DNA from: Trichlorobacter lovleyi
Lineage (GTDB): Bacteria; Desulfobacterota; Desulfuromonadia; Geobacterales; Pseudopelobacteraceae
Reading direction: 5' to 3'
Assembly (NCBI GenBank): GCA_020721175.1
Contig: DYNH01000003.1
Span: forward strand, 1 to 32,290
DNA: 32,290 bases
Positions 17,593-32,290 of the stretch are shown in pieces; positions within the stretch are counted from its first letter, which is position 1, and each line of letters begins with the position of its first letter. Both the position numbers and the translations under genes were made by a program. The notes under the pieces were generated by a model. That model ran no database searches. It was not told the DNA's origin and saw only the letters and a program-made list of their open reading frames with translations.

Positions 17593-18668
17593 AAACCATT
17601 ACTATCAATCTTGGACTGCATTCATATGATATAGCTATCGGTGAAGGTCTTCTGCCAGGTATAGGTTCTGCCTGCAAGGCTATGGGGCTTGGCAGTAATG
17701 TTGCCGTAGTCACTAATCCAACGGTTTCAACCCTCTATTCCGATGTTGTTATATCAGCTCTAAAAGATGCCGGATTTTCTCCTTTTGTGATAGAAATCCA
17801 AGATGGGGAAGAGTACAAAAACTGCTCTACTCTGCAACGGATTTACGATTGTCTGATTGATGCCGGTATGGATCGCCGTTCCTTTATCATAGCACTGGGT
17901 GGTGGTGTGGTAGGTGATATTGCCGGTTTTGCATCGGCTACTTTTTTGAGAGGCATACCTTTTATCCAGATTCCTACAACCCTGCTGGCACAGGTTGACA
18001 GCAGTGTCGGTGGTAAAACCGGTATAGACCATCCTTCCGGTAAAAATTTGATTGGTGCCTTTTATCAGCCCCATCTTGTCTTTTCAGATACAGGTACACT
18101 GAAAACTCTGGAGAAAAGACATTATCTGGCAGGATTAGCAGAAGTGGTAAAGTATGGTGTAGTGCTTGATGCCGATCTCTTTTTACTGCTTGAAGCCGAA
18201 GTAGAGGGCCTGCTTAAACGTGATTCCGACTTGCTTGCCAGGATTATTGCCCGCTGTTGCGAGATAAAGGCAGCAGTGGTTGAAGAAGATGAAAAAGAGT
18301 CTGGATTACGAGCTGTTTTAAATTATGGTCATACACTAGGCCATGCATTTGAAACCATTTCAGGATATCAAGGCATGGTACATGGTGAGGCTGTTGCATC
18401 CGGGATGGTCCAAGCCGCTGTACTTTCAGCTTCTGAGGGTTATTGCACTGAAACGGATGTGCAGAGAATAACTCTGCTTTTACAGAGCCTGAAACTGCCT
18501 GTAACAGCCCCGCAGGCCACGTTTGATGAACTGGTTAATGCAATTTCCAAAGACAAGAAAAACAGATCAGGCTCTATCAAATTTGTATGTAACCAAGGCA
18601 TCGGTTCACACAGCTTCCATTATTTTACCCCGGCACGTTTGGCCGAAGTCTGTTGCTCAGGGAGGTAG
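17589..18668 (+). CDS. aroB: 3-dehydroquinate synthase
   Basis: ALGGGVVGDIAGFASATFLRGIPFIQIPTTLLAQVDSSVGGKTGIDHPSGKNLIGAFYQP, LNYGHTLGHAFE. Confidence 0.97.
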   Translation: MKTITINLGLHSYDIAIGEGLLPGIGSACKAMGLGSNVAVVTNPTVSTLYSDVVISALKDAGFSPFVIEIQDGEEYKNCSTLQRIYDCLIDAGMDRRSFIIALGGGVVGDIAGFASATFLRGIPFIQIPTTLLAQVDSSVGGKTGIDHPSGKNLIGAFYQPHLVFSDTGTLKTLEKRHYLAGLAEVVKYGVVLDADLFLLLEAEVEGLLKRDSDLLARIIARCCEIKAAVVEEDEKESGLRAVLNYGHTLGHAFETISGYQGMVHGEAVASGMVQAAVLSASEGYCTETDVQRITLLLQSLKLPVTAPQATFDELVNAISKDKKNRSGSIKFVCNQGIGSHSFHYFTPARLAEVCCSGR

Positions 18669-18676
18669 ATGCGTTT

Positions 18677-20164
18677 ATGCAGCTATCAACGGAATCCTTC
18701 TGGAGTGAGATTAAGGTACTTGAGGATCGGCTGAAGAGTACCCCTGATTCTTACTGTTTTGCCCAGCTTGCGGACGTCTATCTGCGCGCCGGTCTTCTCG
18801 ATGACGCACTTTCGGTTTCCCGTTCAGGTGTGGCCAGGTATCCAGGTTTTGTGGCAGGTCAATTGTCTCTAGCAAGGACATGCCATCAAAAAGGGCTGAT
18901 TGACGAATGCCGCAAGGCTCTTGAAGTTGTCACAACAGCGGTACCTGATCATGCCGAGGCACAGAGAATGCTTGCTCGCCTTTACTCCGAATCAGGCCGA
19001 GGACAAGAGGCGATACATGCTCTTCAGGTACTGCTTGATTTAAATCCTGAAGATATATCTGCCAGACATGAGCTAGATGCATTGCAGCGAAGATTTCAGA
19101 ATATTATTCTGGAAGATGAACTTGAGCTGATTGAATTTACAGAAGCTGATATTGTTGAAGAGATTGATGAACAACAGGATTCACATGCAGAACCGCTTAA
19201 AAAGAGCGAGGATGCTATAGCACATCCATATCCGGATATCACTGAACAACCAGAGATAATGCAAACGGGATCAGGATGTACAGATGAAAAAGAGATTACC
19301 GAATCTGCTGAAGTTGGTCTTTCGCCAGATTTGGGTGCCGTCTGGGCAAGTCAGGAACAGGAACTGCTTGAACCTGCAACTGTTCAGCCGACTTTGGTTG
19401 AGACTCCGCCTGATCTTGATTCCATCTGGGGACCATCTGAACACGAAATTGCAGAACCTGCCGGGTTTGGACTGTCAACAGATTCAGGTTCTGTCTGGAC
19501 AAGTACGGAACAGGAACTGCCCGAACCTGCAACTGTTCAGCCGGTTATGGTTGAAGCACCACCTGACCTTGATTCCATCTGGGCACCGCCTGAACAAGAA
19601 ATTACAGAACCTGCCGGGTTTGGACTGTCAACAGATTCAGGTTCTGTCTGGGCAAGTACGGAACAGGAACTGCCCGAACCTGCAACTGTTCAGTCAACTT
19701 TGGTTGAGACACCAACTGATCTTGATTCCATCTGGGCACCGCCTGAACAAGAGACTGCCGAACCTGCTGTCACCTTACCAGAACCCGGTGTTATGCTTTC
19801 CAATTATACAGAAGTTGAAAAGGCTGCTGAAAAACCGGAGGAAGCCCCAATCGGTAATGAAAAAGATCCGTTGGTTACATCAACAATGGCAGAACTTTAC
19901 GCTTCTCAGGGGCACGTTGACAAGGCTATATTTATTTACCGCAACATTATTGCAAACACACCTTCTGACCAGACAGCATCTGCGAGACTGACTGAACTGG
20001 AACAATCCTTGCGCCCTGTTGAAATTGCAAGAGTGCCTGATTCAATGTTTGATCTTGCTTCAGAACCTGTCATGGTTCCAGCAGTCGGTATTTCAGATCA
20101 GGCAAAAGTCATTATTCTTGAAGGCTGGCTTGATAACATCCGGAGGTTACGTAAATGCCGATAA
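18677..20164 (+). CDS. TPR protein with acidic, Trp-containing tandem repeats
   Basis: N-terminal TPRs (FAQLADVYLRAGLLDDALSVSRSGVARYPGF...ARTCHQKGLIDECRKALE), C-terminal TPR (TMAELYASQGHVDKAIFIYRNI), and 51-aa repeats in between. Start likely at 18677 after ggagg. Confidence 0.85.
   Translation: MQLSTESFWSEIKVLEDRLKSTPDSYCFAQLADVYLRAGLLDDALSVSRSGVARYPGFVAGQLSLARTCHQKGLIDECRKALEVVTTAVPDHAEAQRMLARLYSESGRGQEAIHALQVLLDLNPEDISARHELDALQRRFQNIILEDELELIEFTEADIVEEIDEQQDSHAEPLKKSEDAIAHPYPDITEQPEIMQTGSGCTDEKEITESAEVGLSPDLGAVWASQEQELLEPATVQPTLVETPPDLDSIWGPSEHEIAEPAGFGLSTDSGSVWTSTEQELPEPATVQPVMVEAPPDLDSIWAPPEQEITEPAGFGLSTDSGSVWASTEQELPEPATVQSTLVETPTDLDSIWAPPEQETAEPAVTLPEPGVMLSNYTEVEKAAEKPEEAPIGNEKDPLVTSTMAELYASQGHVDKAIFIYRNIIANTPSDQTASARLTELEQSLRPVEIARVPDSMFDLASEPVMVPAVGISDQAKVIILEGWLDNIRRLRKCR
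19301..19755 (+). repeat. Tandem coding repeat, about 3 x 153 bp (51 aa), each unit a divergent internal duplication
   Basis: (A/T)EPAGFGLSTDSGSVWxSTEQELPEPATVQPxxVExPPDLDSIWAPPEQEI. gcagaacctgccgggtttgg at 19451 recurs as acagaacctgccgggtttgg at 19604 (153-bp spacing). Six W-x-x-E-(Q/H)-E motifs in total. Confidence 0.9.
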
Positions 20165-29005: not shown

Positions 29006-29296
29006 TTATTTCTTCTTGCCGCCAGATGCCTTTTTGGATGCCTTAAGCGGGTTAACCTTGATATCCTCCACTTTAAGCTCAACCTTGACGTGGGTTGCAT
29101 AATTACATATCCCGTTAGCCCATTTTTTAGATGGGTAAGGATATGCTCCACAAACCTTGCCAATGCTTCCTTCAACAATTTTTTCACAACCTTCGCAATT
29201 ATCAACCACGGCCTGGCATGAGCCTTCTGGTAAAACACAACCATTCTTTGCCATAAAGGTACACTCAGTACCGGGAAGCACTGTTTGACACTGCAT
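29006..29296 (-). CDS. PxxKW family cysteine-rich protein
   Basis: 96 aa, Cys-rich (C..C...C..C..CEGC..C), YPYPSKKWANGICNYATHV, Lys-rich tail, RBS acggaggt upstream. Confidence 0.85.
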   Translation of the reverse strand: MQCQTVLPGTECTFMAKNGCVLPEGSCQAVVDNCEGCEKIVEGSIGKVCGAYPYPSKKWANGICNYATHVKVELKVEDIKVNPLKASKKASGGKKK

Positions 29297-29477: not shown

Positions 29478-30761
29478 TTAAAAATACCAGCGTAACCGCA
29501 GCTCAATTCTGGCATCATTAGGCTTCTCACCGAATTCGCTGAGGCTTGAACCTATAATGGCAGTCCCCTTCAGGCGCAGTTCCAGATTGGTAATGCCGGT
29601 ATAGAGCAGTTCAGGCGACAGGGAAAGACTCTGATCCTGCAGGTTAGCTATTGTTGTAACTGCGGGTGTAAAGTACAGGATATCAAAAGGCTCTTTCTGG
29701 CTGACCCTGACGTACAGGTAATCTCGCATTACTGCAGGTCTTTTGTATGTCTGATTCTGACCAAGCAGTTGAAGTTTTGTCGGGTTGCTGTTTTGCTGCC
29801 ATGCTGACCACCCCTGCTCTATCTGCCGATAAAATATCTCCATCTCATCTTTGGAATAACCGGTGCCGTTGTGGTAGTACTCAACAATATATGTAGTATC
29901 CTGCTCGGTCAGATAACGTAACCCTAAAAGCCAGCTAAAGGCATTGCCTGTGACAGTGGCAGGTTGGCCGTTGGCAGTCAGTACCTGGCGCTGGTGGTTG
30001 ACATCCCAGGCCAGTTCACCATGCAGCTCAAAATTGGTTTTCAGGTTACGTGAGAAATCAAGGCCATATCCAGCATTTCTGCTTCCGCTTCCCCTTATAA
30101 TCAGGTCTATATCGGTATCATACAGCAGAAGATAGAGTTTGCCACCCCAGTTGATGCTATCCTGTGTACCAAAATCACTGTTCAGATCATGATCCCGGGG
30201 CAGTATCAGCGGCGTGATGGCAATGGTCTTCAGAGGTCCGTCAAAACTCTGGACATAATCTGCCATTGCCAGCCAGTACCCTTCCAGGTTCAGTTCAGGA
30301 TCATCTGGATCCTTGGGACGATCAAAGAATGCCACCGGAGTCCAGGCATACCCCTTGCCCCACTTGAGTGATTTCTTTCCGGCCAGCAGCCTGATCTTCT
30401 CATTTGGCTTGGCCTGTAGCCAGGCCTCGTACCAACTGAGTCTTAGATAGTTGTTGAGGCGGGTATTTGTATAATCAAGACTGGGCTGAAGATAGAGTTT
30501 TGCCCAGTCCTTTTCGAGACTACCCTCCAAAAGCAGCTTGCCGTTAAAATCAGCCAGCGTGCTGTCAACATGCCTGCCGTAGTATCTGAGTCTGGTCTGG
30601 GCTGCATCCGGATCAAGCAGATTAAGACCTGGTCTGGCCTCAAGATATCCGCCCAGATGCCATAACTTTTTCTCTATCTCTGATTCATCAAATGTAAAAT
30701 CTTCCGCTCCGGCCCGGGCAGATACAATCATTAGCAGTAGTATTAACAGCAGGAGTTGCAT
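29478..30761 (-). CDS. Outer membrane beta-barrel (porin-like) protein
   Basis: Signal peptide MQLLLLILLLMIVSARAGA, alternating amphipathic strands, C-terminal aromatic ...RIELRLRWYF. Confidence 0.75.
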   Translation of the reverse strand: MQLLLLILLLMIVSARAGAEDFTFDESEIEKKLWHLGGYLEARPGLNLLDPDAAQTRLRYYGRHVDSTLADFNGKLLLEGSLEKDWAKLYLQPSLDYTNTRLNNYLRLSWYEAWLQAKPNEKIRLLAGKKSLKWGKGYAWTPVAFFDRPKDPDDPELNLEGYWLAMADYVQSFDGPLKTIAITPLILPRDHDLNSDFGTQDSINWGGKLYLLLYDTDIDLIIRGSGSRNAGYGLDFSRNLKTNFELHGELAWDVNHQRQVLTANGQPATVTGNAFSWLLGLRYLTEQDTTYIVEYYHNGTGYSKDEMEIFYRQIEQGWSAWQQNSNPTKLQLLGQNQTYKRPAVMRDYLYVRVSQKEPFDILYFTPAVTTIANLQDQSLSLSPELLYTGITNLELRLKGTAIIGSSLSEFGEKPNDARIELRLRWYF

Positions 30762-31505
30762 CTAACGCAGCGAGTCAATACTGCCCATGCCATTAAGGGT
30801 AAAGAGCTCATCCTTGAAGCTCCGTTTCTTTAGTTTTGCATAGAGCATGACTGACTTGTAGCCTTTGTAGAGTGGAGAATCTGTCTCTACTGTGGCAGGG
30901 CGCAATATGCCGCCAAAATTTTTGATGTCCTTGAAATGGAGCGTCTTGATCAGCATACCGGCTTCGGTCAGGCACTCTATCAAACGGGGCAGCATTTTGG
31001 CCTTGTCTGCCAGGATACGTACCCTGTCATATGCCACAGTCCTGTTTTTTGCCTTTAGATGCAGCAGGTAGTCGTTTCCTTTTTCCTCTACCTTTTCAAC
31101 GTTGTATTCAGCATTGTAATCCAACTGCAGGATGTCAGAGTTATTGAAGATACCACCCACAACAGACTGAAGCGAGGTAATCCGCACTGGCTTGCCCACG
31201 TTGGGTATCAACAGCCACATATTCTCACCTAATCGCAGCGTGGTGCGCCCCTTGTCACTGGCCGGGGCAAGAAAAAGTGAAGCCACCTTGTCTGTACCCT
31301 TTTTAACCGTGTAGAGGGTAAACTCTTTCCTCTTTCCGTCTGGTTCAATGTTGATCAGCTTGCGGTAGGATTCGTAACTTTCAGGGTTAAGGTTACGGTC
31401 AATCTGCTTGAGTAGTTGCTGGCCATCCAGGGCATATGCCGGAAGTGCCAGCAACAGCGCCAACACCACAATGCCTGCTATCCGCATTACAAACTCCCCT
31501 TTCAT
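30762..31505 (-). CDS. LolA-like outer membrane lipoprotein-sorting protein
   Basis: Signal peptide IAGIVVLALLLALPAYALDGQQLLKQIDRNLNPESYESY..., and LGENMWLLIPNVGKPVRITSLQSVVGGIFNNSDIL. Confidence 0.8.
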   Translation of the reverse strand: MKGEFVMRIAGIVVLALLLALPAYALDGQQLLKQIDRNLNPESYESYRKLINIEPDGKRKEFTLYTVKKGTDKVASLFLAPASDKGRTTLRLGENMWLLIPNVGKPVRITSLQSVVGGIFNNSDILQLDYNAEYNVEKVEEKGNDYLLHLKAKNRTVAYDRVRILADKAKMLPRLIECLTEAGMLIKTLHFKDIKNFGGILRPATVETDSPLYKGYKSVMLYAKLKKRSFKDELFTLNGMGSIDSLR

Positions 31506-31882
31506 TGCAACGCCTTTTTCACAGCGTCTGCAACAGTTCCCTTAAACTCCAGATACCTGATCCCCCTGGACTGCATACCCCTGACCATCTTTTGACCAAA
31601 GGCCCCGGCAACCACAACACTTGCCCCTTTGCCGGAAAGAAAGCCGACCACCTGAGAGCCTGCGCCTCCTGATGCTTTACTGTACGGGTTTTCTATACTT
31701 TCCAGCAATGTCCCGTTGCTGTCAAACAAGAGGAAGTAAGGGCATCTGGCGGCAATGGCGCTTACCTGTGACGATTGTGATACTCCTTCTGATGAAATAG
31801 CGATCTTCGGCGTCCCGGCAGCATGAACGGCTAACGAGAAAAACAAAAGAATCAGCGGGATAATAAAGAGTACTCGTTTCAT
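31502..31882 (-). CDS. Secreted NifX/NifB-family (dinitrogenase iron-molybdenum cofactor biosynthesis-like) protein
   Basis: Signal peptide MKRVLFIIPLILLFFSLAVHAAG, then KIAISSEG...SQVSAIAARCPYFLLFDSNGTLLESIENPYSKASGGAGSQVVGFLSGKGASVVVAGAFGQKMVRGMQSRGIRYLEFKGTVADAVKKAL. Confidence 0.82.
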   Translation of the reverse strand: MKRVLFIIPLILLFFSLAVHAAGTPKIAISSEGVSQSSQVSAIAARCPYFLLFDSNGTLLESIENPYSKASGGAGSQVVGFLSGKGASVVVAGAFGQKMVRGMQSRGIRYLEFKGTVADAVKKALQ

Positions 31883-31892
31883 GACAAACCCC

Positions 31893-32288
31893 CTATACAT
31901 GTCTTAGCGCCTTGATCGGCTCCATTCTGGATGCCTTGAAGGCGGGTTGCAGGCTGGCGATAACCGATATGGCGATAACGATCAGCGACAGCGTCAGTAC
32001 ATCCAAAAGGTTAATCCCGGCCTGAAGGATCAGCCCCTGTTGCCTGCCAAAGTTGTATGACAGCTTTAGCATGTTCAGCATGACAATCAGTACCGTACCC
32101 ATCAGACTCCCCACAACTGCGCCACAGATGCCGAGGCTCAAGCCCTCCAGCAGAAACATCGAAAGGATTCTTGAGGGCGGCGTTCCGATGGCCGCCATGG
32201 TTCCTATCTCCCGTATCCGCTCATAAACCGCCATAATCATCACGTTCATGATGCTCACCAGCACCACGGCGATCAGCATCAGCTTCAT
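31893..32288 (-). CDS. ABC transporter permease, FtsX/LolE-like C-terminal part (5' end outside window)
   Basis: NVMIMAVYERIREIGTMAAIGTPPSRILSMFLLEGLSLGICGAVVGSLMG...AFKASRMEPIKALRHV. Confidence 0.88.
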   Translation of the reverse strand: MKLMLIAVVLVSIMNVMIMAVYERIREIGTMAAIGTPPSRILSMFLLEGLSLGICGAVVGSLMGTVLIVMLNMLKLSYNFGRQQGLILQAGINLLDVLTLSLIVIAISVIASLQPAFKASRMEPIKALRHV

Positions 32289-32290
32289 GA

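Follow-up and report, generated by a model that had tools for sequence, protein, structure and literature searches.

An exported NifX-fold protein encoded within a LolCDE-like transporter cassette of Trichlorobacter lovleyi and other members of its phylum

The Lol systems (LolCDE/LolF-LolA) combine a LolF/LolE-type permease, a type VII ABC protein, with an ATPase (LolD) and a LolA-fold periplasmic carrier, and many bacteria lack LolB, the canonical receiver. The closest described arrangement to the locus reported here is the Borrelia BBJ23-29 cluster with an ATPase, a homodimeric MacB/LolE-like permease, a LolA-like carrier and an Omp85 barrel, for which the cargo is proposed to be non-polar (PMC13078400). 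In AmeABCD of Castellaniella, an RND pump is grouped with DUF1329 and DUF1302 proteins and linked to apolar compounds (PMC6394551). For the NifX/NafY/ORP family (PF02579), the NifEN-NifX structure shows that H35 of NifX ligates the apex of NifB-co; NifX keeps its cargo in a pocket of strongly positive charge before handing it over, and NifY and NafX, which do not have that His, are described as being without a cofactor-binding residue (PMC13128457).

We report that one end of a T. lovleyi contig (referred to as the window, i.e., the whole stretch of 32,290 nucleotides that was analysed) carries a cassette that resembles the Borrelia cluster in having genes for an ATPase, a permease, a LolA-like carrier and an outer-membrane barrel together, and AmeABCD in grouping an inner-membrane pump with a LolA-superfamily periplasmic protein and an outer-membrane protein. 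It differs from the former in having an AlgE/porin-like barrel instead of one of the Omp85 superfamily, and a NifX-fold protein where the Borrelia cluster has TPR chaperones, and from AmeABCD in that the latter is RND-driven and has neither an ABC ATPase nor NifX. The NifX-fold protein shares fold and sequence family with NifX, NafY and ORP but is predicted to be exported rather than cytoplasmic, and lacks the cluster-binding His. In the openly available full-text literature we found neither a secreted NifX nor a cassette of this kind described.

The window is one entire contig of a draft genome and, in agreement with the initial annotation, has four minus-strand genes at its end. The contig ends inside a permease gene, of which the C-terminal, FtsX part is present (31893-32288, 131 aa; PF02687, 63 bits versus a cut-off of 25.5), and this is followed by genes for the exported NifX-fold protein (31502-31900, mature protein ~106 aa; PF02579, 54.2 bits versus 26.3), the LolA_like periplasmic carrier (30762-31505; PF17131, 123 bits versus 30) and a 427 aa outer-membrane beta barrel (29478-30761), recognised by its barrel features and predicted structure. 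The tight packing noted at the outset is borne out, since the NifX open reading frame overlaps the permease stop by 8 bases and the LolA gene by 4 bases, and the barrel ATG directly adjoins the LolA stop. Judging from the sequence, the likely true start of NifX is at 31879 (MKRVLF..., with AGGGGG before the start), and the predicted leader is MKRVLFIIPLILLFFSLAVHA-A; for LolA_like the likely true start is at 31487 (MRIAGIVVLALLLALPAYALDG). Just downstream of the barrel gene (29006-29296) lies a gene for a PxxKW family cysteine-rich protein (DUF6811), and elsewhere in the window a TPR-like protein gene (18653-20164) contains a 153-base in-frame tandem repeat (2.9 copies, 19326-19767).

The last 55 bases of the window (32236-32290) are identical to the end of another contig of the same genome, C90, and on this contig we found the remaining ~283 aa of the permease together with an ATPase gene (L003:7886-9476). 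After joining the contigs via this overlap, the permease is a single open frame of 414 aa, preceded and overlapped by the 237-aa ATPase gene; the ATPase that the initial annotation expected beyond position 32290 is thus present. The join is more than an assembly guess because UBA2189 (L027/L034) and MAG37 (L033) have the same five genes on single contigs. The full cassette is accordingly predicted to encode a LolD-like ATPase, a LolF/LolE-like permease of the type VII ABC class, the exported NifX-fold protein, the LolA_like protein and the outer-membrane barrel.

A permease profile built from 16 relatives gave LolF (9w35, 4.6e-26) and LolE (3e-24) as the nearest solved structures and aligned with both across most of the periplasmic and membrane part. 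Compared with LolF and LolE, the permease lacks five residues in one loop that connects two periplasmic strands, the loop that bears the Hook in LolC. Its two parts score 62.5 and 63 bits against NCBIfam TIGR02212 (LolCE/LolF), so that even the summed scores stay far under the cut-off of 362, and for the ATPase the best family is LolD (TIGR02211, 221 bits), under the cut-off of 307.75. In the inner membrane the permease probably forms a homodimer. The same genome encodes a canonical LolCE elsewhere (TIGR02212, 455 bits) and two LolA proteins (PF03548) on other contigs, which rules out that the cassette is the housekeeping Lol system and makes it an additional route. It is probably a second, dedicated LolCDE-like route for lipids or lipoproteins, in line with the export system that had been proposed from the window alone, and it departs from the Lol systems also in having a dedicated barrel in place of LolB and the NifX-fold protein as an extra subunit.

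The carrier belongs to PF17131 (LolA_like) and falls outside PF03548 (LolA), and with a profile of 24 members the nearest PDB entry was 3BUU (NE2245, 8.8e-32). The predicted structure of the barrel has about 18 strands (mean pLDDT 83), and the best fold match was AlgE (TM about 0.56), with porins also matching; these TM-scores are low and only "outer-membrane barrel" is therefore safe as an assignment. In none of 24 barrel members did a Pfam family score above chance, and no PDB entry was matched as a sequence relative.

Membership of the NifX-fold protein in PF02579 (NifX-like, Nitro_FeMo-Co) is supported by both profile and fold. Specifically, all 21 secreted relatives match the family, the sequence matches include TM1290, MTH1175, TM1816 and ORP, and the AlphaFold model (pLDDT 90) retrieved TM1816 (E 6e-9), ORP and NifX of the NifEN-NifX complex using Foldseek. 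Each of the 21 has a hydrophobic N-terminal leader with the features of a Sec leader, i.e., a positive n-region, a hydrophobic core and an AxA-like site, and cytoplasmic relatives in the same order are without it. Moreover, a natural leader swap has occurred in one draft genome (G526; L170:1339-2187), where, compared with the sister L121, 295 bases have been deleted, so that the leader and first strand of NifX continue in frame into mature LolA, which has lost its own leader. Since LolA function requires a periplasmic location, the NifX leader probably exports LolA in this genome, and looks functional; this and the leaders in the 21 relatives uphold the view that a NifX-fold protein with an export leader is encoded inside a LolA/permease/barrel operon. 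Between close pairs dN/dS varies between 0.07 and 0.35, showing that the protein is under purifying selection. In one genome two secreted NifX genes lie in tandem, the second being very divergent with an insertion of ~32 residues (L116:7225-8136), and another member of the phylum has several cytoplasmic NifX-like genes in tandem (L124:13542-14995).

The occurrence of the cassette was studied in a phylum sample of 395 genomes, most of which are draft assemblies. A genome-wide scan with a single protein of the window as query gave only two cassettes; a phylum search with three NifX proteins identified a distinct secreted clade (at least 88 bits) in 11 further genomes, and a LolA search within the class added 14 cassettes. 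After reading the surroundings, NifX-bearing cassettes numbered 20, and NifX is positioned between the permease and LolA in 19 of these and just upstream of the ATPase in the remaining one (L115). In three close relatives of the same order (G126, G137 and G073), NifX is absent and the genes for the ATPase, permease, LolA and barrel are present. The LolA subfamily, as defined by the 24-member profile with a sharp score gap below, is present in about 52 of the 395 genomes, and the 29 loci read from this search repeat the permease-LolA arrangement, nearly all with the barrel and mostly without NifX. The same gene order is thus seen in more than 45 loci, with the ATPase, the FtsX/MacB permease, the LolA-fold carrier and the outer-membrane barrel found together as one operon, and chance association of the genes is ruled out by this synteny across the phylum. 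Among 12 genomes with a secreted NifX, 11 have this LolA subfamily compared to 1.6 expected if the two were independent (uncorrected for relatedness), and in the remaining genome (G446) the contig breaks off within NifX. The co-occurrence that the initial annotation had proposed to check is thus borne out across the phylum, with the qualification that NifX is optional and that cassettes made up of just the remaining four genes are found as well; this pattern indicates a core four-gene exporter with NifX as a recurring optional fifth member. The ATPase, one LolF/LolE-type permease, the LolA_like carrier and the barrel travel together alongside a separate canonical Lol system.

Plasmids yielded no close relatives, and clustering of the flanking genes revealed no conserved cargo gene beside the cassette, such as the initial annotation had proposed to seek beyond position 32290. 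Apart from an ABC-2 transporter and Metal_resist genes, in four cases each, nothing emerged from the clustering. The ABC-2 (DrrA/DrrB-like) transporter adjoins the cassette at L003:6016-7751 and in the L027, L113 and L126 flanks, upstream in some and downstream in MAG37. The Metal_resist (ZraP/CnrX-type) or Metal_resist-like genes are located upstream of the cassette or of NifX (L112:463-1514, L113:2078-2617, L116:10611-11108 and L119:7872-8393).

On the permease, LolA and barrel trees the presence or absence of NifX changes at least 11 to 14 times, and the shared operon position suggests that it is an old operon member that has been lost repeatedly, though the trees themselves do not discriminate between gains and losses. 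In its main groups the NifX tree agrees with that of the permease. In the genus of the window, the ATPase and permease of NifX-bearing genomes are closer to those of MAG37 than to those of their NifX-free sisters (permease identity 76-85% versus 62-67%), and LolA and the barrel resemble those of the NifX-free sisters. Six related genomes are united in the LolA tree (100) and the barrel tree (98), and for the permease, the window and UBA2189 belong to a different, well-supported clade. Holding the four same-genus permeases together was rejected (p-AU 1e-5) and holding all six permeases together was not (p-AU 0.135), in a comparison that comprises six genomes and groups named after the identities had been seen. 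NifX, the permease and the ATPase group apart from the NifX-free relatives, and LolA and the barrel group with them, and NifX hence moves with the inner-membrane half. Our data suggest that ATPase, permease and NifX were exchanged as a block and that NifX works together with the inner-membrane half.

We consider it about an even chance (roughly 0.5) that the cassette is a self-contained LolCDE-like exporter of lipophilic cargo in which NifX serves in the periplasm as an accessory subunit that belongs with the ATPase and permease. The ATPase-permease would pull the cargo, which may be a lipid, a lipidated molecule or a lipoprotein, from the inner membrane, LolA_like would shield it through the periplasm, and the barrel would take it up at the outer membrane. 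NifX would dock on the permease from the periplasm and tune or aid the hand-off to LolA_like, the same class of job as that of NifX docking on NifEN, minus the metal cluster, and would be dispensable in many lineages; given the many genomes without NifX, it cannot be essential to transport. More tentatively, a NifX-family hand-off protein may have been redirected to the periplasm and, after losing the metal ligand, have become a cargo-binding or gating subunit of a phylum-widespread ABC/LolA/barrel lipid exporter.

The initial annotation had instead suggested a periplasmic metal-cluster or redox chaperone serving the export system. The fold is shared with NifX, NafY and ORP, which bind metal clusters (PMC13128457), and Metal_resist genes adjoin four cassettes or NifX genes. 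The motif around the ligand points the other way. A cytoplasmic relative, PH0822 and TM1816 have HFGR at the motif position, and H35 of NifX is in our reading the His of this HFG motif; in the secreted clade the motif is xAAR (in some xxGR), with the His replaced in 21 of 21 members. C53 (open reading frame numbering), the sole Cys in the window protein, lies just after the motif, at a position that is Cys in just 4 of the 21 members, and no column of the mature alignment exceeds 5 of 21 for Cys or His, leaving neither the motif His nor another Cys/His as a conserved ligand. Clusters of the ORP type are bound mostly without ligands from side chains, which would favour such a chaperone, but for the secreted NifX a cluster bound in this way is unsupported. 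NifY and NafX, likewise without the His, are described as having no cofactor-binding residue (PMC13128457). With the ligand residue not conserved, the metal-chaperone role is ruled out as the leading reading and we regard it as unlikely; the secreted NifX probably acts as an accessory component of the pump and not as a metal carrier.

Of the readings that keep NifX or the cassette in transport, one is lipoprotein sorting proper, i.e., a second Lol system that delivers a particular class of lipoproteins to the surface. The permease being nearest LolF and LolE in the PDB, the ATPase nearest LolD and the carrier with its LolA fold argue for this, as does the comparable Borrelia cluster, for which transport of lipoproteins or of some other non-polar ligand has been proposed (PMC13078400), but the permease and ATPase scores under the Lol equivalog cut-offs, the PF17131 carrier, the absence nearby of both LolB and a conserved lipoprotein gene, and the canonical LolCE and LolA already in the genome make it possible rather than probable. 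It is more doubtful that NifX is a ligand-binding carrier or selector, with the former cluster pocket as a putative binding site for an anionic part of the cargo (e.g. a head group) that is then presented to the permease or LolA_like. The positive pocket through which NifX holds and hands over its cargo (PMC13128457), the motif Arg (R52 of the window open reading frame), which is kept in almost all secreted members, and the tie to one permease clade in the genus of the window, as expected of a cargo-specificity factor, are consistent with such a role. Against it, NifX has been lost in a scattered fashion (11-14 changes on the trees), which shows that the exporter can function in its absence as well. 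Finally, NifX could be a passenger, a relic in the operon without a role in the transporter, given how often it is absent and its decay by fusion in L170; the purifying selection, the operon position retained over deep divergence, the tandem duplication in L116 and the tree shared with the permease make this very unlikely. The reading of NifX as an accessory subunit of a LolCDE-like exporter agrees with a NifX-fold protein that, as far as sequences tell, is exported, conserved and co-inherited with the transporter, without the metal ligand of its family.

NifX-like proteins have so far been described as cytoplasmic metal-cluster chaperones, and the existence of a conserved branch that is exported and lacks the metal ligand suggests another job for the fold, tied to an envelope transporter. 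Being present in about one in seven of the sampled genomes of the phylum, the cassette is a compact candidate for a complete route from the inner to the outer membrane, including the outer-membrane receiver, and the natural presence and absence of NifX among close relatives provide a ready-made test of its role.
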